A stretch of DNA of 64,000 nt, from the NCBI RefSeq assembly GCF_000685235.1, contig NZ_ARYH01000001.1, forward strand, positions 1,860,001 through 1,924,000, read 5' to 3'. Below are positions 43,318 to 51,447 of the stretch, piece by piece. A program made the position numbers and the translations under genes. This DNA is from Hyphomonas adhaerens MHS-3. Its GTDB lineage: Bacteria > Pseudomonadota > Alphaproteobacteria > Caulobacterales > Hyphomonadaceae. The notes beneath the pieces are model-generated. The model was not told where the DNA came from and did not search any database. It saw only the letters and a list, made by a program, of their open reading frames with translations. The stretch's first letter is position 1. Each line of letters starts with the position of its first letter.

Positions 43318-44754
43318 ATGCCGGGTATGAGCGAAGCCGACACCAAACCTGTTACATTCCTTGACCGCTGGACACGCTTGTCGCTGGCCCGGCGGATCAT
43401 TCTGGCCGCAGCCGTCTGGGGCCTGATCGTCCTGATTGGTGGCGCCCTTGCCTTGTCGGCCTTGTACCGGGCGCAGACATTGTCCCTGCTGTCCGACGAT
43501 CTCGACCAGACCCTGATTACCCTGACACGTGACATGACGCGCGAAGGGGCGTTCCTGCCCGATGGCCGGGTGACGGACGACAATCACGTCTTCCTGTCGA
43601 CCGATTCCCGCTATCAGACCCAGTATTCCGGGCGTTACTGGGCGATCGTTGCGGTCGACGAAGACGGTGCGCCAACCGGCGACCTGCGCTCACGCAGCCT
43701 TTGGGATGAACCGGTCCCGATGTCGCCGCGCCTGCTGAAGCGCGCGCTCGGCACGCCGGGCACGACGCAATTTGGCATTGGTCCGGGGCCTGCCGGCCAG
43801 AGAATTTTCGCTGCGGCCAAGGCCATTTTTGTCGAGAACCGGGAGACGCCGCTTGTGCTGGTCGCGGCGGCGGACAGGGCGCAGAACGATGCGGCGGCGA
43901 CCCGGTTCCGCAACCTGCTGATCGGTACGATGGTCGTGCTCTTTGGTAGCGTCTTCGCGGCCATGGTGGCAGGCATCCGTTATTCCCTGCGCCCGCTGGT
44001 GAAACTGGGGAACGACATTGCCGAGATCCGGGAAGGCACGCGCCTGAAACTGGCCGACGACTACCCGTCCGAAGTGCAGCCGCTGACGGAAGAGCTGAAC
44101 AAGCTGGTGGATCACAACCGGCAGGTGGTGGAGCGGGCGCGGACGCATGTCGGCAATCTCGCCCACGCGCTGAAGACGCCGATTGCGGTGCTGCGCAACG
44201 AGGCGACGGGCAAGACGCAACTGGACGATGTCGTGCGCCGCCAGGTCGATTCCATGCAGACCAATGTGGAGCACTACCTGAAGCGCGCCCGAATGGCGGC
44301 CCGTGCGGAGGCGCTGGGCGCCCGCACCGAGCTGCGGCCCGTCCTGGATGGCATCGCCCGGCTGATGAACCGGCTCTACGATGCCAAGGGCATAGACGTG
44401 ACGGTGTTCGGCGGCGACGGGGCGGTGTTCCGCGGGGAACAACAGGACCTGGAAGAGATGGTCGGCAATCTCATGGAAAATGCCTGCAAATGGGCGAAGG
44501 CCGATGTGCAGGTCAGCGTTTCGGACGATGCCAGCGAGCTGCGCATCGAAGTCGATGATGACGGGCCGGGCCTGACAGCGGAAGAACGCGAAGGTGCGCT
44601 CAAGCGCGGGGTGCGACTTGATGAAACAACCCCGGGCACCGGGCTGGGTCTGTCGATTGTCACCGAGCTGGCAGAGCTGCATAAGGGCGTGCTTGAACTG
44701 GATGAGGCCCCGGCCGGGGGCCTCCGCGCACGCCTGAGGTTTCCGAAACGATGA
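43318..44754 (+). CDS. Sensor histidine kinase (PhoQ/FeuQ-like)
   Basis: 478 residues. TM1 (about 27-50), a periplasmic sensor (about 50-190; TLSLLSDDLDQTLITLTRDM), TM2 (about 198-220), a HAMP region, the phosphoacceptor box HVGNLAHALKTPIAVLRNEA (His near 283), N box MENACKWAKADVQVSV, and G boxes VDDDGPGLTAEE and TGLGLSIV. The NLAHALKTPIAVL form of the H box is typical of PhoQ/FeuQ-type kinases. It overlaps ccmI by ATGA, linking the sensor to cytochrome c maturation by position only. Confidence 0.9.
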   Translation: MPGMSEADTKPVTFLDRWTRLSLARRIILAAAVWGLIVLIGGALALSALYRAQTLSLLSDDLDQTLITLTRDMTREGAFLPDGRVTDDNHVFLSTDSRYQTQYSGRYWAIVAVDEDGAPTGDLRSRSLWDEPVPMSPRLLKRALGTPGTTQFGIGPGPAGQRIFAAAKAIFVENRETPLVLVAAADRAQNDAAATRFRNLLIGTMVVLFGSVFAAMVAGIRYSLRPLVKLGNDIAEIREGTRLKLADDYPSEVQPLTEELNKLVDHNRQVVERARTHVGNLAHALKTPIAVLRNEATGKTQLDDVVRRQVDSMQTNVEHYLKRARMAARAEALGARTELRPVLDGIARLMNRLYDAKGIDVTVFGGDGAVFRGEQQDLEEMVGNLMENACKWAKADVQVSVSDDASELRIEVDDDGPGLTAEEREGALKRGVRLDETTPGTGLGLSIVTELAELHKGVLELDEAPAGGLRARLRFPKR

Positions 44755-45368
44755 ACCGCCTGAATATTGCCGTCGCCGGACTCTGCCTCGCCATCGCCGT
44801 GGCGGGCTATCTGGCGGTGGGAAAGCCCGGCATGCCGGACAATCCCATGGCAGAGCGCCAGGCGGGGCTTGCCGACAAGATCGCCAATGCGCCGGAAACG
44901 CTGACGCCGGCCGAAACGCTGTCGCGCCTCGAACTCGCAACCCGGCAGCGCCCGAACGACCCGCAGCCGCATTTCTTCATTGGCGAGATGCTGCGCGCCG
45001 AGGGCCGCCCGGAAGATGCCGCGCGGGCGTATCAGTCTGCGCTGCGGCGGGATGAAAATTTCGTCCCGGCGCTGGTGTCGCTGGCCGACACGCTGGTGGC
45101 TCTGTCCGGCGGCGGAGTCAGCCCGCAGGCAACGCGGCTGTATGGCCGCGCCTACGAACTCGACCAGTCGCAAGTGCGCGCCGGGATGTGGGCCGCCATG
45201 GGCGCCGCACAGGCAGGCGACCAGGACAAGGCCGAACAGGCCATGCGTTATATCTATAACAATCTCCCCGAAGACGATCCGCGCCGCGAACGCTTCAAGG
45301 GCATGATCGCAGCCATCGGGCAGGGGGAAGAAGCCCCGCCCGCGCCAGAGGCTGCCCCGTCGGAATAG
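44751..45368 (+). CDS. ccmI: Cytochrome c biogenesis TPR protein (CcmI/CycH C-terminal type)
   Basis: 205 residues. N-terminal TM (about 5-23), then TPR-like helices (TLSRLELATRQRPNDPQPHF, FIGEMLRAEGRPEDAARAYQ, SALRRDENFVPALVSLADTL) and an Ala-Pro-Glu tail. It lacks the N-terminal two-TM CcmI-1 segment of full-length CcmI but has the apocytochrome-binding TPR part. The rest of the ccm operon (ccmE-ccmF-ccmH) begins 3.4 kb downstream, beyond a hydrogenase block. Elsewhere in Caulobacterales these genes are usually adjacent. Confidence 0.82.
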   Translation: MNRLNIAVAGLCLAIAVAGYLAVGKPGMPDNPMAERQAGLADKIANAPETLTPAETLSRLELATRQRPNDPQPHFFIGEMLRAEGRPEDAARAYQSALRRDENFVPALVSLADTLVALSGGGVSPQATRLYGRAYELDQSQVRAGMWAAMGAAQAGDQDKAEQAMRYIYNNLPEDDPRRERFKGMIAAIGQGEEAPPAPEAAPSE

Positions 45369-45380
45369 GTCAGTCCCGCT

Positions 45381-47453
45381 TTACAGAACCTGCCGCTGCA
45401 GCGTTTTTATGAGCGTCGAGGAACGGCGGCCATCATTGGCCGGACACAATTCCAGAGTGAACCGGCAGCGCTGGCCGTCAGGTGTCACGACGGTGAGATC
45501 CTCATTGTCGGCGGCAGACGCCATCTGGTGGCGCAGATAGCGGGCCGCGTATTCGCGTGGGGGCAGTTGCGTGCGTATGAACGATTCGATGTTCTCTGCA
45601 CCCTGAATGTCTCCGAAAGGGGATGCGGTGGACCAGATCCCGTCCGGATGGAACAGGCTTGCGGCTTCCCCGGCCTCCCGCCGGTCGACATAGTCGAGAA
45701 AGCGCATCAGCATTGATCGCTTGGAGCCTCTCCCTGAATAGTGCGTATGCAGCAAGTGGTGAGCCGCCGCTGAGTTCGGCTTATGCAACTGAGTTTCGTA
45801 GAGCTTCCGGACATCCGTGTTTTCGTAGGAGCGCCGGCGCGGCGCTCTGGCGTCCATGTCGTAAATCGCTTTGCTGCGCTTCTTCAGGACGTCCGGGTCC
45901 ATGGATTTCGGTTCGCCGCCGCCACCGAGGCAGCCACCCGAACAAGCCATCACCTCAATCGCGACAAATTCCGTGCGCCAGTCATCCGACTCCAGCATGC
46001 GCTGGGCGGCGGCAATGCCATTGCACACGGCAACGGTTCCCACGCCGGGAATGGATGCCGTCTTCACCGCATCATGTACGCCCCGCAATTGCTGCCACTC
46101 CAGCGGAATCTGGTCTTCCAGGCCTTTGAGGTGAGCGGCTGTCCGCACCATGGCTTCCATGACGCCGCCAGAGGCCCCGAAGATCTGGGCGGCGCCGGTG
46201 CTTTCGCCGAGCGGGTTGTCGAAGCTGCCATCTTCATCCAGCGCGCCAAACGCGATGTCGCGGGACCGGATCATCCGGGCGAGTTCACGGGTGGTCAGAA
46301 CATGATCCACGTCACCTGACATGCCCGGCCTTCGGGCCTCATCCTTTTTGGCCGTGCACGGCATGACGCTGACGACGTACGGCTCGGCCTTTCCGTCTGA
46401 GAACTCAGGTCCCAGCGAGCGCGCGAAATTACCTCGCTTGGTCATGGCGCCGTGCATCTGCTGGGGGGATTTCGTCGTGCTCAGATGCGCCAGCAGGTCG
46501 GGCCGGTTGAGTTCAATCCAGTTCACCCATCCCGGGCAGCAGGATGTGAACAAAGGCAGCCTTGTCCCGGCTTCGAGACGGGCCAGTAATTCCGACCCTT
46601 CCTCCATGATGGTGAGGTCGGCCGTGAAGTTGGTGTCGAACACATAATCGAACCCCAGCGCCCTCAGCGCATTGATCAGCCTGCCGGTGCTGACGGTTCC
46701 GGGCTTCATGCCGAATTCCTCGCTGATGGCGATGCGCGTGGCCGGTGCCACCTGGACCACGGAGACCCGTTTGCGGGAATCGAGGACATTCAGGACATCG
46801 TGCCAGTGAGGCGCTTCGATCAGGGCGCCGACCGGACAGACAAGCGTACACTGGCCGCAGGAAATGCAATTGGTTTCAGACAGGGGCGCGTCGAACACGG
46901 TGACAGGCAGCCGTTCATCGCCGCGTTCCGCAAATCCGATCACGTATTGCTGCTGGCCTGCTTCACCGCATGCTTCGGCACACAGGCCGCACTCGATGCA
47001 TTTGGAAAGATCCCGCCAGATGCTGGGCGATGTGTGGTCAGACGAGACATGTTCGGGGTGGTCGCGAGACCCCGGCGGGACTTCCTCCCAGTGTTCCTCC
47101 CACTGGTTCTCGGCGACAAGGCGCTGCAGCCTGCATGTGCCGTTGACTTCACAGCGCATGCAGTCGTTCGGGTGCCGCGCCAGCAACCATTCCCCATTGC
47201 TGCGGCGGAACGCCCGGAGCGACTCCGAATCCGTTTCGACCACGTCGCCCTGTTTCGCCAGCGTGGTGCAGGCCGGTTGCGGTTTTTTCTCGCCTTCAAC
47301 CTCGACCAGGCACATCCGGCAGACCGAATGAGATGGCAGGCCCGGATAGTGGCAAAGTGTCGGAACATGGATGCCCGCTTTCCGGGCGGCATCGAGCAGC
47401 GTCGCGCCTTCGGACAGTTCGACAGGACGTCCGTTGATCGTCAGTTCGATCAT
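45381..47453 (-). CDS. [FeFe]-hydrogenase with NTF2/SnoaL-like C-terminal domain
   Basis: 690 residues. N-terminal 2Fe-2S ferredoxin domain (C34, C45, C48, C62), a His-Cys3 4Fe-4S domain (H94, C98, C101, C107) and two 4Fe-4S clusters (C152-C162, C196-C206). The H-cluster domain (about 225-515) carries all three signatures: TSCCPGW (303-309), MPCTAKKDE (364-372) and MACSGGC (502-508). A small-subunit-like region (about 525-571) follows, then about 115 extra residues resembling an NTF2/SnoaL fold (MLMRFLDYVDRREAGEAASL, FHPDGIWSTASPFGDIQGAE). Clostridial enzymes end near 570. The enzyme interconverts protons and H2 with ferredoxin. No hydE, hydF or hydG appears in the window; activity needs them elsewhere. 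Confidence 0.93.
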   Translation of the reverse strand: MIELTINGRPVELSEGATLLDAARKAGIHVPTLCHYPGLPSHSVCRMCLVEVEGEKKPQPACTTLAKQGDVVETDSESLRAFRRSNGEWLLARHPNDCMRCEVNGTCRLQRLVAENQWEEHWEEVPPGSRDHPEHVSSDHTSPSIWRDLSKCIECGLCAEACGEAGQQQYVIGFAERGDERLPVTVFDAPLSETNCISCGQCTLVCPVGALIEAPHWHDVLNVLDSRKRVSVVQVAPATRIAISEEFGMKPGTVSTGRLINALRALGFDYVFDTNFTADLTIMEEGSELLARLEAGTRLPLFTSCCPGWVNWIELNRPDLLAHLSTTKSPQQMHGAMTKRGNFARSLGPEFSDGKAEPYVVSVMPCTAKKDEARRPGMSGDVDHVLTTRELARMIRSRDIAFGALDEDGSFDNPLGESTGAAQIFGASGGVMEAMVRTAAHLKGLEDQIPLEWQQLRGVHDAVKTASIPGVGTVAVCNGIAAAQRMLESDDWRTEFVAIEVMACSGGCLGGGGEPKSMDPDVLKKRSKAIYDMDARAPRRRSYENTDVRKLYETQLHKPNSAAAHHLLHTHYSGRGSKRSMLMRFLDYVDRREAGEAASLFHPDGIWSTASPFGDIQGAENIESFIRTQLPPREYAARYLRHQMASAADNEDLTVVTPDGQRCRFTLELCPANDGRRSSTLIKTLQRQVL

Positions 47454-47599
47454 TCGAAGAAGGCCTCAAATGTCGCAGATGTCATATCGGCGAGTATAGG
47501 CGCGTGGTGCCGAATTAGACAGCCACAACTCAACGACGCATCAGAGGCCGTGCCGTTTTGCCGGGCCGCTTGTCCCGGCCGGCAGGGCTTTCGTGCAGG

Positions 47600-47956
47600 T
47601 TACGCCTCCACCCGCATGTCTTCCGCGTGCCAGCGCTGGGCGAGATCGTTGAGGCCTTCCAGAACGTCCTTCAGCTCAGCCCCGCGCGGGGTGAGCGAAT
47701 AGGTGACGGCCGGCGGCACGGTCGGCTTGTAGTCCCGGTGGATGAGGCCAGCGCCTTCCAGCATGCGCAGCCGCTCGGTCAGCACTTTGGAGGAAATGCC
47801 GGGCATGCCGGCTTTCAGCTCACCGTAGCGTTGCGGCCCCTGAGAGCGCAGCAGCCACAGGATATAAGTCGTCCACGGCCCCATCAGCAGTTTCAGCAGG
47901 GAATCCATTGGGCAGGCCGTGTGATTTTCGTTCTGCGGTTTCGTTGTTCTGGTCAT
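47600..47956 (-). CDS. HxlR-family transcriptional regulator
   Basis: 118 residues. Winged-helix (about 18-100; LLKLLMGPWTTYILWLLRSQ, GPQRYGELKAGMPGISSKVL) of the HxlR/MarR-like family. C15 in HTACPMD is at the position of the redox cysteine of QorR/YodB/HypR, repressors of quinone-reductase genes, so electrophile or oxidant sensing is likely. Divergent from the WrbA-like gene, its probable target, across 142 bases. Confidence 0.9.
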   Translation of the reverse strand: MTRTTKPQNENHTACPMDSLLKLLMGPWTTYILWLLRSQGPQRYGELKAGMPGISSKVLTERLRMLEGAGLIHRDYKPTVPPAVTYSLTPRGAELKDVLEGLNDLAQRWHAEDMRVEA

Positions 47957-47995
47957 GGGGCACCTGTGAGCTGAGAAAAAGTCTGCCTGGCCCTT

Positions 47996-48015
47996 TAGTT
48001 ACTATTTGGAACCTA
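47996..48015. promoter_or_regulatory. Imperfect palindrome between hxlR-type and flavoprotein genes
   Basis: TAGTTAC and GAACCTA face each other (47996-48015) in the divergent promoter region, a plausible HxlR operator. Symmetry is weak. Confidence 0.3.
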
Positions 48016-48098
48016 CTTTTTCAAGGGAACCGCTGACCTATATGGGCCAGGTCGGGCGCTATGAAGGGCCCCACGAAACACATAGCGGAGTAGGACAC

Positions 48099-48674
48099 AT
48101 GACAAAGATCGCAATCGTGTATTTCAGCGGCTACGGCCACACTCAGAAACAGGCGGAAGCCGTGCACGCCGGGGCCAGCTCGGTGGAGGGCGCCGACGTA
48201 AAACTGTTCCGGATCAATGAAGAAGGCGACCTCGGCGAAGGCGAATTCGAAGCGCTGGCCGGATATGACGCCATCATCTATGGCAGCCCGACCTATATGG
48301 GCGGCCCGGCCTGGCAGTTCAAAAAGTTCGCCGATGCCACGTCCAAGCCCTGGTTTACGCAGGAATGGAAAGACAAGATCGCCGGCGGCTTCACCAACTC
48401 CGCCTCTGTGAACGGCGACAAGAAGGCGACGCTCGACTATTTCTTCACCCTGTCGCAACAGCACGGGCAGGTCTGGGTCGGGACCGGCCTCCTGCCGGCG
48501 AACACCAAGGCCCACGGGCCGGACGATGTGAACTGGACCGGTGGATTCTCGGGCGCGATGGCCATTTCCCCGTCGGATGCTTCGCCCGAAGAAGCGCCGG
48601 GCAAGGGCGATCTCGAAACGGCCCGCCAATACGGTGTGCGGGTGGCGGAAGCCGCGAAACGCTGGGCACAATAA
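48099..48674 (+). CDS. WrbA/flavodoxin-like NAD(P)H:quinone oxidoreductase
   Basis: 191 residues. FMN phosphate loop YFSGYGHTQKQAEAV at the N-terminus, then GYDAIIYGSPTYMGGPAWQF and KKFADATSKPW, typical of the WrbA family of tetrameric quinone reductases that use two-electron reduction to avoid radicals. GGAG precedes ATG 48099. Divergent from the HxlR gene, which probably represses it. Downstream comes a hairpin (48688-48712, GCGGCAG/CTGCCGC) without a T run. Confidence 0.88.
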   Translation: MTKIAIVYFSGYGHTQKQAEAVHAGASSVEGADVKLFRINEEGDLGEGEFEALAGYDAIIYGSPTYMGGPAWQFKKFADATSKPWFTQEWKDKIAGGFTNSASVNGDKKATLDYFFTLSQQHGQVWVGTGLLPANTKAHGPDDVNWTGGFSGAMAISPSDASPEEAPGKGDLETARQYGVRVAEAAKRWAQ

Positions 48675-48749
48675 GCCATCGGGACGGGCGGCAGGTGCGA
48701 TGCATCTGCCGCACTCCCATTTCTGCGCATTGCGCTCTATAAGACCCGC

Positions 48750-49175
48750 ATGCGCGCACGCACTCGACGACTCTATACGTTTGGCATCGCCGCCGTCCTG
48801 CTGCTGGCCGCAGCGGGCCTTGCGTTCATGGCCCTGCGCCAGAATGCCAACCTGTTCTACACGCCTCACACGCTGGCCGAGAAAGGCCTGCCGAAAGAGG
48901 GACGTGAGGTGAAGGTCGGCGGCTGGGTCGAGCCTGGCTCCCTGACCTATTCGGCGGATGGCGCCACCATGATGTTTACCGTGATCGACAGCAGCGATGC
49001 CGACATCAAGGTGTCGTTCACCGGCATTGCGCCGGACCTGTTCCGCGAAGGGCAAGGCGTCGTCGCCATTGGCCAGTTCAATGCCGACCGGACATTCACC
49101 GCCCGCCAGATCCTCGCCAAGCATGACGAGAACTACCAGCCACGTGAATTGCGGCCCGAGGCAATCGGCGGATGA
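48750..49175 (+). CDS. ccmE: Cytochrome c maturation heme chaperone CcmE
   Basis: 141 residues. N-terminal TM anchor (about 10-28) and a periplasmic beta-barrel (GREVKVGGWVEPGSLTYSAD, DIKVSFTGIAPDLFREGQGV). The heme-attachment motif LAKHDENY gives covalent heme His H125 and ligand Y129. CcmE carries heme from CcmABCD to CcmF-CcmH. Overlaps ccmF by ATGA. Confidence 0.95.
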   Translation: MRARTRRLYTFGIAAVLLLAAAGLAFMALRQNANLFYTPHTLAEKGLPKEGREVKVGGWVEPGSLTYSADGATMMFTVIDSSDADIKVSFTGIAPDLFREGQGVVAIGQFNADRTFTARQILAKHDENYQPRELRPEAIGG

Positions 49176-51052
49176 TCGAAGCCGGGCACTTTGCGGCCTT
49201 TCTGGCGCTGGGCGCCGCGCTGGCGCAGACGGTCTTCGGCCTGAGGGGCGACCGCCGCTGGGCAGGCATGGCCGCCGTCACCGGTTTCGGCCTTATGGCG
49301 TTTTCCTTCCTGACGCTGGTGCATGCCTTTGCCGTGTCGGATTTTTCACTCAAATTGGTGGCCAGCAATTCCCACACGCTGAAGCCGATGCTCTACAAGA
49401 TCGCCGGCACCTGGGGGAACCATGAAGGCTCCATGGCGCTCTGGGCGCTGGTGACATTTGCCTTCGGCGCCGCGGCGGCGGCCTTGATGAAGACCGGCCG
49501 GGAGCGTTTCGAGGCGCGTGCGCTCGGCGTGCAGGGCTTCCTGGCCGCGGGGGCGATGGGTTACCTGCTGTTTGCATCCTCGCCTTATCTGCGGCTGGAT
49601 CCGGCACCGTTCCAGGGGGCGGGATTGAACCCGTTGTTGCAGGACCCTGCGCTGTCGTTCCACCCGCCGATGCTTTATCTGGGCTATGTCGGCTATTCCT
49701 TTGTCTTTGCGCTGGCCGCAGCGGGCATGATGGAAGGCCGGATCGACCGGGTGTGGGCCAAGGAGGCCCGGCGCTGGTCGCTTGCCGCCTTCGTACCGCT
49801 CACCTTCGGCATCGCGCTGGGATCATACTGGGCCTATTACGAGCTCGGCTGGGGCGGCTGGTGGTTCTGGGATCCGGTGGAGAATGCTTCGCTGATGCCC
49901 TGGCTGATCGGCGCCGCCTTGCTGCACTCCGTCATCGTCACGGAAAAGCGCGAGAACTTTTCCGCCTGGACCGCGCTGCTGGCCGTGCTGGCCTTCCTGT
50001 TCTCGATCATGGGCGCGTTCCTTGTGCGTTCGGGCGTGCTGACATCGGTTCACGCCTTTGCCGTCGATCCGGAACGCGGGATGGTCCTGTTGTTTGGACT
50101 GATGGTCTATGGCGTGCTCGCGCTCGGCCTGTTCGTCTGGCGCGGGCCGGTCCTGAAAGGCGCGAAGCCCTGGCTGGTCACCAGCCGGGAAGGCGCGCTG
50201 ATGGCAAACAATATCGTGCTCATCGTGGCAGCGCTGACCGTCCTGCTGGGCACACTGTTCCCGCTGATGGCCGAAGCGGCGGGGCGTACAATGTCCGTTG
50301 GCGAACCATATTTCCGGCTGACCTTCGTGCCGATCCTGGCCATTCTCCTGATCCTGCTGCCCGTGGCGCAGAGCTGGGCCTGGGGCAAGGCCGACCTGAA
50401 ACAATGGTCACGTTGGGCGATTGCAGGCGCCGCGCTGGTCGCCGTGTTCGCCGCGTTGGGCGTTGGTGTGTGGAATATCTCGCTGGGGGCAGCATTTGGG
50501 CTGGCCCTTGGCGTTTGGCTGATCGGCGGCGCCTTGTGGGAACTCCGGCGTCGCGCCGTCACGCTGAAGCGGGTGTTTCGTGTGTCACCGCGTGTCTGGG
50601 GCATGACGCTGGCGCATATGGGAATTGGCCTGTTCATCATCGGCGCCGTGATCGAGACGACCGGGCGCTACGAGACAACTGTCGCGCTGTCCGAAGGCGG
50701 GTCCGGCCAGGCGGCTGGCTGGACACTGACGCTGGATGATGTCGGCTCGATCGAAGGGCCGAACTGGTACGCCGACAAGGCCGTCCTGACAGCGGTGAAG
50801 GGCGGGGTGAAAACCGTACTGGAGCCGATGAAGCGTTACTATCCTGCCGCACGTATGCCGACGACGGAGACGGCAATCTACAAGACCGGCACGGGCGACC
50901 TCTATGCGGCGCTGGGCGAGCAACGCGTCGTGGACGGGCAGGCGCGCTGGGTGTTCCGGGTCTACTTCAATCCGCTGATCGATTTCGTATACTTCGGCGT
51001 GCTCCTGATTGGCCTTGGCGGCGCTCTCTGCATGGTGAAAGTGAAGCGATGA
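49172..51052 (+). CDS. ccmF: Cytochrome c heme lyase subunit CcmF
   Basis: 626 residues with about 15 transmembrane helices. The tryptophan-rich WWD motif WGGWWFWDPVENASLMPWL (about 227-245) and His residues around NSHTLKPMLYKIAGTWGNHE identify CcmF, which transfers heme from CcmE to apocytochrome thiols. Periplasmic domain near 510-590. Overlaps ccmE and ccmH by four bases each, so these three are a tight operon. Confidence 0.96.
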   Translation: MIEAGHFAAFLALGAALAQTVFGLRGDRRWAGMAAVTGFGLMAFSFLTLVHAFAVSDFSLKLVASNSHTLKPMLYKIAGTWGNHEGSMALWALVTFAFGAAAAALMKTGRERFEARALGVQGFLAAGAMGYLLFASSPYLRLDPAPFQGAGLNPLLQDPALSFHPPMLYLGYVGYSFVFALAAAGMMEGRIDRVWAKEARRWSLAAFVPLTFGIALGSYWAYYELGWGGWWFWDPVENASLMPWLIGAALLHSVIVTEKRENFSAWTALLAVLAFLFSIMGAFLVRSGVLTSVHAFAVDPERGMVLLFGLMVYGVLALGLFVWRGPVLKGAKPWLVTSREGALMANNIVLIVAALTVLLGTLFPLMAEAAGRTMSVGEPYFRLTFVPILAILLILLPVAQSWAWGKADLKQWSRWAIAGAALVAVFAALGVGVWNISLGAAFGLALGVWLIGGALWELRRRAVTLKRVFRVSPRVWGMTLAHMGIGLFIIGAVIETTGRYETTVALSEGGSGQAAGWTLTLDDVGSIEGPNWYADKAVLTAVKGGVKTVLEPMKRYYPAARMPTTETAIYKTGTGDLYAALGEQRVVDGQARWVFRVYFNPLIDFVYFGVLLIGLGGALCMVKVKR

Positions 51053-51447
51053 AAGCGCTGTTCCTGTCTCTCGTGATCGCACTGGCCGCCGACGTGCCGC
51101 TGGATAATCAAGCAGAGGAGGCGCGCGCGCAGGCCTTGATGCGGGAACTTCGCTGCGTGGCGTGCGAGAATGAGCCTGTGTCCCAGTCCGCGGCGCCGAT
51201 TGCCGAAGACATGCGTATGCGCATCCGCGAAATGGTCGGGGAAGGATCTACCGACCAGGAAGTGCGTGACTGGTTCGAGAGCCGGTATGGCGAGTTTGTC
51301 CTGTTCCGTCCGAAGAGCAACAATCTCAGCGGCCTGTTGCTTTGGGTCGGCCCGTTCGTCCTGCTCGCCATTGGCGCGCTGATCGGTTTCCTCACCGCGC
51401 GGCGGAAACGGACGGTCGTGGACCAGATCGAACCGGAAGACGTCTGA
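51049..51447 (+). CDS. ccmH: Cytochrome c maturation thioreductase CcmH (CcmL type)
   Basis: 132 residues. Signal-anchor, then ELRCVACENEPVSQSAAPIA, the LRCxxC motif with C36 and C39 that keeps apocytochrome cysteines reduced; C-terminal TM (about 96-118) and RRKR tail. The usual form is LRCxxCQNQ; here CENE, a mild deviation. No ccmG gene follows, nor ccmABCD in this window. Confidence 0.93.
   Translation: MKALFLSLVIALAADVPLDNQAEEARAQALMRELRCVACENEPVSQSAAPIAEDMRMRIREMVGEGSTDQEVRDWFESRYGEFVLFRPKSNNLSGLLLWVGPFVLLAIGALIGFLTARRKRTVVDQIEPEDV

Follow-up and report, generated by a model that had tools for sequence, protein, structure and literature searches.

An M3-type [FeFe]-hydrogenase homologue with a predicted NTF2-like tail and no detected HydEFG maturases in Hyphomonas adhaerens and other Proteobacteria

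Introduction

The CO/CN-ligated diiron unit of the [FeFe]-hydrogenase H-cluster requires HydG, HydE, and HydF, and the hosts of enzymes of the type of CpI from Clostridium pasteurianum (PDB 4xdc) possess HydEFG. In the trimeric electron-bifurcating HydABC enzymes, the hydrogenase gene is adjoined by NuoE/NuoF-like genes. The sensory groups C and D carry a C-terminal PAS domain, and eukaryotic Nar1/NARFL, which has a role in cytosolic Fe-S assembly, keeps the cluster ligands but is not known to keep the diiron-contacting Cys. Genes for hydA without maturases are already known: excerpts of PMC4967309 describe such a gene in the alphaproteobacterium Rhodospirillum rubrum, and the accessible part of PMC3226654 remarks on maturase-less genomes of “a few species” with [FeFe]-hydrogenase genes. 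PMC13104023 describes domains at the C-terminus of further [FeFe]-hydrogenase groups as putatively sensory. CbA5H carries an SLBB domain and was matured using HydEFG in the study of PMC13397568, and a hydrogenase-rubrerythrin chimera is another [FeFe]-hydrogenase with an extra domain (PMC11926857).

Here, we describe a hydrogenase homologue of Hyphomonas adhaerens MHS-3 whose family shares an extra domain that differs from those of CbA5H and the rubrerythrin chimera, both of which have clostridial hosts. A literature search covering few subscription journals returned no description of a SnoaL/NTF2-tailed hydrogenase family and no paper joining [FeFe]-hydrogenase with Thiomicrorhabdus or Hyphomonas; the accessible part of PMC11219375 contains nothing on the tailed family. 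The hydA of R. rubrum can be likened to the present gene by description rather than by sequence, the excerpts of PMC4967309 mentioning no tail, and R. rubrum is not among the best 80 of the 321 relatives kept from the collection scan below.

Domain architecture and C-terminal tail

The window, by which we mean the whole analysed stretch of 64,000 nucleotides, contains at 45381..47453 on the minus strand an ORF of 690 residues with an ATG start and no internal stops, assigned as an M3-type [FeFe]-hydrogenase homologue by Pfam and NCBIfam matches and by 62 other complete family members. Its product is the only PF02906 protein of the genome. Along the protein, Pfam places Fer2_4, NADH-G_4Fe-4S_3, Fer4-type, Fe_hyd_lg_C, Fe_hyd_SSU, and SnoaL_4 matches in this order. 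The N-terminal [2Fe-2S] ferredoxin-like domain (Fer2_4; residues 1-76; 47226..47453, minus strand, as for all features of the protein) contains C34, C45, C48, and C62, which from their motif we take to be the cluster ligands, and is followed by a NuoG-like His/Cys [4Fe-4S] site (NADH-G_4Fe-4S_3; residues 83-117; 47103..47207; H94, C98, C101, C107) and by two [4Fe-4S] ferredoxin motifs with eight Cys (Fer4-type matches; residues 145-211; 46821..47021). The H-cluster (H) domain (residues 231-512; 45918..46763; Fe_hyd_lg_C, E 1e-79) includes the P1 motif TSCCPGW (residues 303-309; 46527..46547), with the proton-relay residue C305 and the ligand C306, and the P2 motif MPCTAKKDE (residues 364-372; 46338..46364), with M364, C366, K369, and E372, both placed by alignments with structural homologues and within the family. 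The P3 motif, EVMACSGGCLGGGGEP (residues 500-515; 45909..45956), is defined by the family alignment, in which the signature reads MAC[V/S/T]GGCLGGGGEP. A small-subunit-like segment (residues 521-574; 45732..45893; Fe_hyd_SSU, E 1.1e-18) leads to the C-terminal NTF2/SnoaL-like domain (residues 575-690; 45384..45731).

The best PDB relative and NCBIfam match of the protein is HydA1 of the bifurcating complex of Thermoanaerobacter kivui (8a6t; group A6/A3, M3-type, NF040763), which aligns with residues 1-576 (E 1e-141; 42% identity by Foldseek) and has the same domain order, Fe-S ligands, and H-domain fold; 7q4v and CpI come next. The general group A model TIGR02512 is passed (429.5 bits, cut-off 405.95), whereas the NADH-dependent group A6 model NF040763 is not (653.2 bits against a cut-off of 765). 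In contrast to group A6/A3 HydA, the present protein has no adjoining HydB/HydC, no HydEFG was found with it, the Pro of P3 is replaced by V/S/T, and the tail of 116 residues is added. Compared with CpI, the H-cluster ligands and the proton relay are identical residue for residue; CpI S232 is Ala here. The alignment extends to CpI residue 573, and the PDB hydrogenase matches listed stop near query residue 575. Built from 51 aligned sequences, an AlphaFold2 model of the full-length protein has a mean pLDDT of 81, falling below 50 around residues 101-105, 136-149, 183-189, and 207-212, and matches 8a6t (Foldseek E 8e-50) and also CpI.

The tail itself (residues 575-690, one residue longer than initially annotated) matches SnoaL_4 at residues 582-645 (E 1.6e-6, 28.5 bits against a cut-off of 24). 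In an alignment of 40 of the 63 family tails, those of 39 relatives are 48-65% identical to the query tail, and Pfam finds SnoaL_2 in 35 and SnoaL_4 in 34 of the 40. A tail-only AlphaFold2 model built from these 40 sequences (pLDDT 87, pTM 0.82) matches ActVI-ORFA, SgcJ, and ketosteroid isomerases (best Foldseek E 4e-5, probability 1.00, TM 0.65 by query), with rmsd mostly 5-7 Å and identity of at most 21% among the 50 Foldseek matches listed, and the tail sequence profile reaches PDB entries at E 0.02 or weaker. These model and Pfam matches, together with the weak PDB sequence matches, identify the tail as a predicted, divergent NTF2-fold domain, in agreement with the initial annotation. The fold is thus that of the NTF2/SnoaL superfamily, of a kind often binding small molecules, and is here fused to a hydrogenase. 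Together with MAC[V/S/T]GGCLGGGGEP, the tail provides a simple search signature for the family.

Distribution and phylogeny of the tailed family

Carriers are few near the query: 4 of 105 genomes of its own taxonomic family, all in one genus, and 7 of 398 genomes of its order (69-100% identity, all full length). A class-wide search of 385 genomes gives 18 matches, namely the window itself and 17 other alphaproteobacterial ones that are 41-45% identical and reach query residue 591 at most, and a phylum-wide search finds 3 of 398 genomes, comprising the window, one tailed protein (71%), and one partial match (46%). In a collection of species genomes that is described as comprising 84,980 species, and in which our scan sees stretches matching six peptide patterns, 321 relatives were found and the best 80 kept: 67 loci have 65-82% best-segment identity, after which identity drops to 46-50% in 13 Thermotogota sequences without the tail. 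Sixty-two of the 67 are complete (685-702 residues over the matched part, no stops), and five are cut by contig ends. The complete relatives, tail included, come from records of alpha-, beta-, gamma-, and zetaproteobacteria. Hyphomonas, Thioclava, Alloyangia, Jannaschia, Thiomicrorhabdus, Hydrogenovibrio, Gallionella, Nitrosomonas, Janthinobacterium, Paraburkholderia, Rhodoferax, Mariprofundus, and Brevundimonas are among the named carriers, which we take to be aerobic or microaerophilic; because many records are metagenome bins, individual names may be wrong. The rarity that had been supposed for this kind of aerobe is therefore seen in the counts for the family and the order, but the gene recurs across Pseudomonadota. 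A scan of viral sequences returned no relatives, and the relatives on plasmids (at most 44% identity) and phages (at most 41%) are distant, matching to about residue 580 at most.

In a 91-row tree, computed by a quick method with a midpoint root, the 67 family rows fall together with an SH-aLRT of 100, and the stem leading to them measures 2.14 changes per column, so that the hydrogenases bearing this tail, whose phylogeny the initial annotation had proposed as a check, constitute one clade. The tree draws them beside the Thermotogota rows and separate from the alphaproteobacterial rows that have no tail. Twenty-two alphaproteobacterial rows lie in one starred group, and L042, a bin labelled alphaproteobacterial, lies outside it. 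The partial L121 was excluded, two row pairs represent the same protein (L021=L026 and L120=L061), and the outgroup includes some ORFs that are incomplete or were left untrimmed (e.g., L098, L101).

Maturases and cofactor supply

Profile searches found no HydE, HydF, or HydG in the H. adhaerens genome (G000), which is rated 100% complete, extending to the genome as a whole the absence first remarked for the window. In the genus, the HydE and HydF searches gave weak non-maturase matches only. Neither HydE nor HydF exceeded the cut-off in any of 53 carrier entries, and HydG was found in none of the carriers searched (8 genus genomes including 4 carriers, and 49 locus-linked genomes including 46 carriers); since contig coordinates identify G046=G409, G208=G431, and G245=G453 as duplicates, these results apply to 50 distinct carriers for HydE and HydF and to 49 for HydG. 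Completeness is reported for few carriers and is at least 90% in six. The same searches recovered HydE, HydF, and HydG together in two of three Thermotogota controls and none of the three in the other (L103, tailless), so that the absence of maturases from a bin is not always meaningful. Across 14 control genomes, HydF matched Thermotoga maritima alone, and HydE matched two genomes, those of T. maritima and Methanosarcina acetivorans, exceeding the cut-off in one.

As a source of CO/CN ligands, we also considered NiFe-type maturation, for which HypD is the marker. HypD is missing from the H. adhaerens genome and from 31 of 35 carrier entries (37 genomes searched, two of them non-carriers). With HypD in only 4 of the 35, we reject this route as a general source of the ligands. 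Because no known route to the diiron cofactor was found, an ordinary HydEFG-matured hydrogenase is unlikely. The family is hydrogenase-like by fold and motifs but without detected HydEFG, carries an extra domain, and forms a clade of its own, adding to the maturase-less hydA genes already described. The initial annotation had supposed that a misreading would reveal itself either by missing maturases combined with degenerated motifs in close homologues or by a tail devoid of homologues. The maturases are indeed missing, yet the motifs of the homologues are intact and the tail has homologues, which makes the observation stranger rather than refuting it.

Conservation of the active-site pocket and proton relay

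C306, C366, C504, and C508 are all present and align with CpI C300, C355, C499, and C503, which we take to be the H-cluster cysteines. The relay residues E285, E288, R292, C305, and S325 are likewise present and align with CpI E279, E282, R286, C299, and S319. In the accessible part of PMC6226526, these CpI residues are assigned proton-relay roles, and the E279A/Q and C299A/S variants retain <1% of the activity, while some other relay changes are mild. All Fe-S ligands, H-cluster cysteines, and relay residues are therefore in place, as initially annotated; the P3 position was overlooked there. P3 reads MAC-S-GGC in the query, and the variable position is V in 60, S in two, and T in one of the 63 family members; the three aligned PDB homologues have P or H there.

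The family alignment is made up of 63 distinct sequences, whose pairwise identity has a median of 0.72 and a minimum of 0.60, and from it the five of 67 scan loci cut by contig ends were left out (L077, L079, L080, L083, L089). Invariant in 63 of 63 are the 16 accessory-cluster ligands, the four H-cluster cysteines, and C305, E285, E288, R292, A236, P237, A238, S329, P330, M364, K369, M502, and F425; S325 and Q331 are each conserved in 62. Thirteen of 15 pocket and relay residues, a set that we chose with the CpI structure as a guide, are invariant, compared with 105 of 291 core positions (pocket included, ligands excluded; hypergeometric P 5e-5), although the five relay residues alone (four of five invariant, P 0.06) are only marginally above core conservation. 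Over 46 family and five Thermotogota rows, most pocket and relay columns are invariant and the remainder are conserved to at least 90%. Other positions set the family apart from 24 tailless relatives, whose most frequent residue is a different one: W89, L157, R340, W453, C477, W492, and E514 (67 of 67 family rows) and A498 (66 of 67). The V/S/T of P3 is a further difference from these relatives. Values of dN/dS (Nei-Gojobori, 11 pairs) are 0.04-0.18 in the core and 0.10-0.33 in the tail in 10 of the pairs, the tail value being 0.81 in one very close pair. The near-invariance of the pocket and the low core dN/dS indicate that the gene is maintained and that the pocket matters.

These data bear on three alternative explanations. 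That the gene came from anaerobes as a hydrogenase and is now decaying, as the missing maturases might suggest, is already contradicted by the absence of stops in 62 of 62 complete scan relatives, by core dN/dS far below 1 in all 11 pairs, and by a clade that partly follows taxonomy (22 alphaproteobacterial rows grouped, L042 outside); we regard the probability of decay as close to negligible, in keeping with the initial annotation, which had argued against it from intact motifs. Conservation of the pocket and relay as in tailless hydrogenases (the 46 family and five Thermotogota rows) would instead fit a genuine hydrogenase that converts H2 and builds its H-cluster by an unrecognized route without HydEFG, and several carriers belong to genera that live at oxic-anoxic interfaces (Gallionella, Mariprofundus, Thiomicrorhabdus). 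However, HydG, HydE, and HydF are needed for the diiron unit, none was found in the carriers searched, and HypD is also absent from 31 of 35 carrier entries, so that we consider this explanation doubtful. Invariance of every Fe-S ligand (63/63) and the lack of any detected diiron maturation are shared by the expectation for an Fe-S electron carrier or scaffold, which by analogy would hold [4Fe-4S] clusters only and be comparable to eukaryotic Nar1/NARFL. Such a role appears improbable, since C305, K369, and the relay are kept here, whereas Nar1-type proteins are not known to keep the diiron-contacting Cys.

A plausible role for the tailed family

The established basis for an interpretation consists of the domain anatomy, the near-invariant pocket, the single clade, purifying selection, the predicted NTF2 fold, and the finding of neither maturases nor conserved neighbours. 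On this basis, we favor, at about even odds (probability roughly 0.5), a neofunctionalized, HydEFG-independent M3-type hydrogenase-fold redox enzyme that acts alone in bacteria regarded as aerobic or microaerophilic. Of the two roles offered in the initial annotation, an H2 sensor or a redox enzyme with a new role, the latter is the one that fares better. Because the known cofactor machinery was not found in the carriers, the enzyme would either receive its cofactor by an unknown route or have a non-hydrogen function; in the best reading, it would lack the canonical H-cluster, being H-cluster-free or holding a cofactor made by such a route. As a plausible mechanism, a soluble donor, possibly ferredoxin or an NADH module, would deliver electrons into the N-terminal [2Fe-2S]/[4Fe-4S] chain, from which they would reach the [4Fe-4S] cluster bound by C306, C366, C504, and C508. 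The pocket that holds the CO/CN diiron unit in hydrogenases would be kept together with K369 and the relay E288-S325-E285-C305, through which protons would arrive, and would serve to reduce, in a proton-coupled reaction, either a small ligand or another cofactor made independently of HydEFG. The NTF2 tail may bind a ligand or a partner, or make a dimer.

It speaks against the favored redox enzyme, however, that C305, K369, M364, M502, and the relay are kept as strictly as a real H-cluster would require, since without an H-cluster the enzyme would not obviously need every one of these residues. Highly diverged maturases may also have gone unrecognized. A stronger form of the proposal, in which this proteobacterial clade makes a working H-cluster or another organometallic/Fe-S cofactor without HydEFG and uses it together with the fused NTF2 domain to carry out proton-coupled reactions in bacteria that respire oxygen, is less likely than not, and we put it forward tentatively. 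Should the protein make H2 or bind the diiron unit, the rule that an [FeFe]-hydrogenase requires HydEFG would no longer stand. Otherwise, H2 metabolism cannot be deduced from a complete “hydrogenase” motif set, and surveys based on genes would overstate H2 cycling where they count such sequences of aerobic Proteobacteria as [FeFe]-hydrogenases.

Genomic context

The window is Hyphomonas-like: eight flanking genes share 92-98% identity with their counterparts in Hyphomonas sp. CY54-11-8. On one side, hydA has a convergent ccmI/cycH-like TPR gene (44751..45368, plus strand; TPR_CcmH_CycH), which is context rather than part of the system and forms the same junction in L025 and L122. At this junction in three Hyphomonas-group genomes, hydA is flanked by a ccmI-like and a ccmE-like gene and runs on the strand opposite to the cluster; in the window, the cytochrome c maturation cluster at 44751-51447 (ccmI-, ccmE-, ccmF-, and ccmH-like, labels that are in part putative) is thus interrupted by hydA, as it is in L025 and L122. 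The window strain additionally has HxlR and WrbA-like genes (47600-48674).

Clustering of 3449 flanking ORFs from 63 loci, many of whose flanks are cut by contig ends, yields no neighbour family in more than 10 loci. The clusters that are found are generic, comprising, as labelled from their sequences, SDR, cation-ATPase, ligase, ABC, response-regulator, and GltD-like families; NuoE-like or NuoF-like clusters do not occur beside hydA in five or more of the 63 loci. No general operon partner emerges from the ORF clustering, gene calling, or Pfam scans of 20 chosen neighbours (15 of 75 listed same-strand neighbours and five others). The descriptions of a solo gene and of missing partner subunits therefore hold, the latter for the ORFs at about 38-55 kb and in the neighbour clustering.

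A regulator of the HxlR type (47600..47956, minus strand; Pfam) lies upstream of hydA in the window and, together with the putative sensory C-terminal domains described for other [FeFe]-hydrogenase groups in the accessible part of PMC13104023, would be compatible with an H2 or redox sensor in which the NTF2 domain is the signalling module. However, Pfam matches no PAS, kinase, or phosphatase domain in the 690-residue protein, which has SnoaL where groups C and D have PAS, and the family loci show no conserved regulatory neighbour. HxlR is not conserved with hydA: tblastn finds no homologue of it in the 62 family loci, and neither HxlR nor WrbA-like homologues occur in these loci or in L122-L124, for which reason both are rejected as functional partners. 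The sensor proposed in the initial annotation thus finds no support and is very improbable.

Some individual loci offer hints of electron donors, and no more than hints, through ferredoxin- or NADH-linked neighbours (L088, L045, L058, L040). In one locus, L088 (3981-12309), hydA lies between a nuoD-like gene, recognized by eye, and downstream nuoE/nuoF-like genes (Pfam), an arrangement that recalls the partners in HydABC. KorA/KorB-like 2-oxoacid:ferredoxin oxidoreductase genes and a GltD-like oxidoreductase gene lie near hydA in two lineages, L045 (2745-8001) and L058 (5881-13130), where the KorA/KorB-like labels come from Pfam and from sequence likeness only, respectively; they may point to a ferredoxin donor. 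In L040 (4505-7933) and L084 (4519-7965), a fused PDH-like E1, an E2 acyltransferase, and a small acyl-carrier-like protein are encoded upstream, 35-67 bp from hydA and preceded by a ligase-like gene, the labels coming from Pfam for L040 and from the same gene sizes for L084. An acyl carrier protein is also among the hydA neighbours in L065 (Pfam).

Eight promoter consensus patterns were scanned in 65 upstream regions and compared with block-shuffled sequence. The FNR/Dnr-type palindromic box TTGA-N6-TCAA occurs exactly in four regions (L027, L051, L062, L088; 0.2 in shuffles) and with at most one mismatch in 15 (6.2 in shuffles), with overlapping variants slightly raised; the window has no exact FNR-type box upstream of hydA. 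A promoter motif shared by the family is rejected. A few GC-rich 8-mers recur in five to seven upstream regions, and Rfam finds no RNA at 45000-48800. Immediately upstream of hydA, an 11-codon ORF (47450-47485, minus strand) overlaps its start in ATGA, which could reflect a leader peptide, translational coupling, or chance; by eye, similar ORFs precede hydA in L025 and L019.
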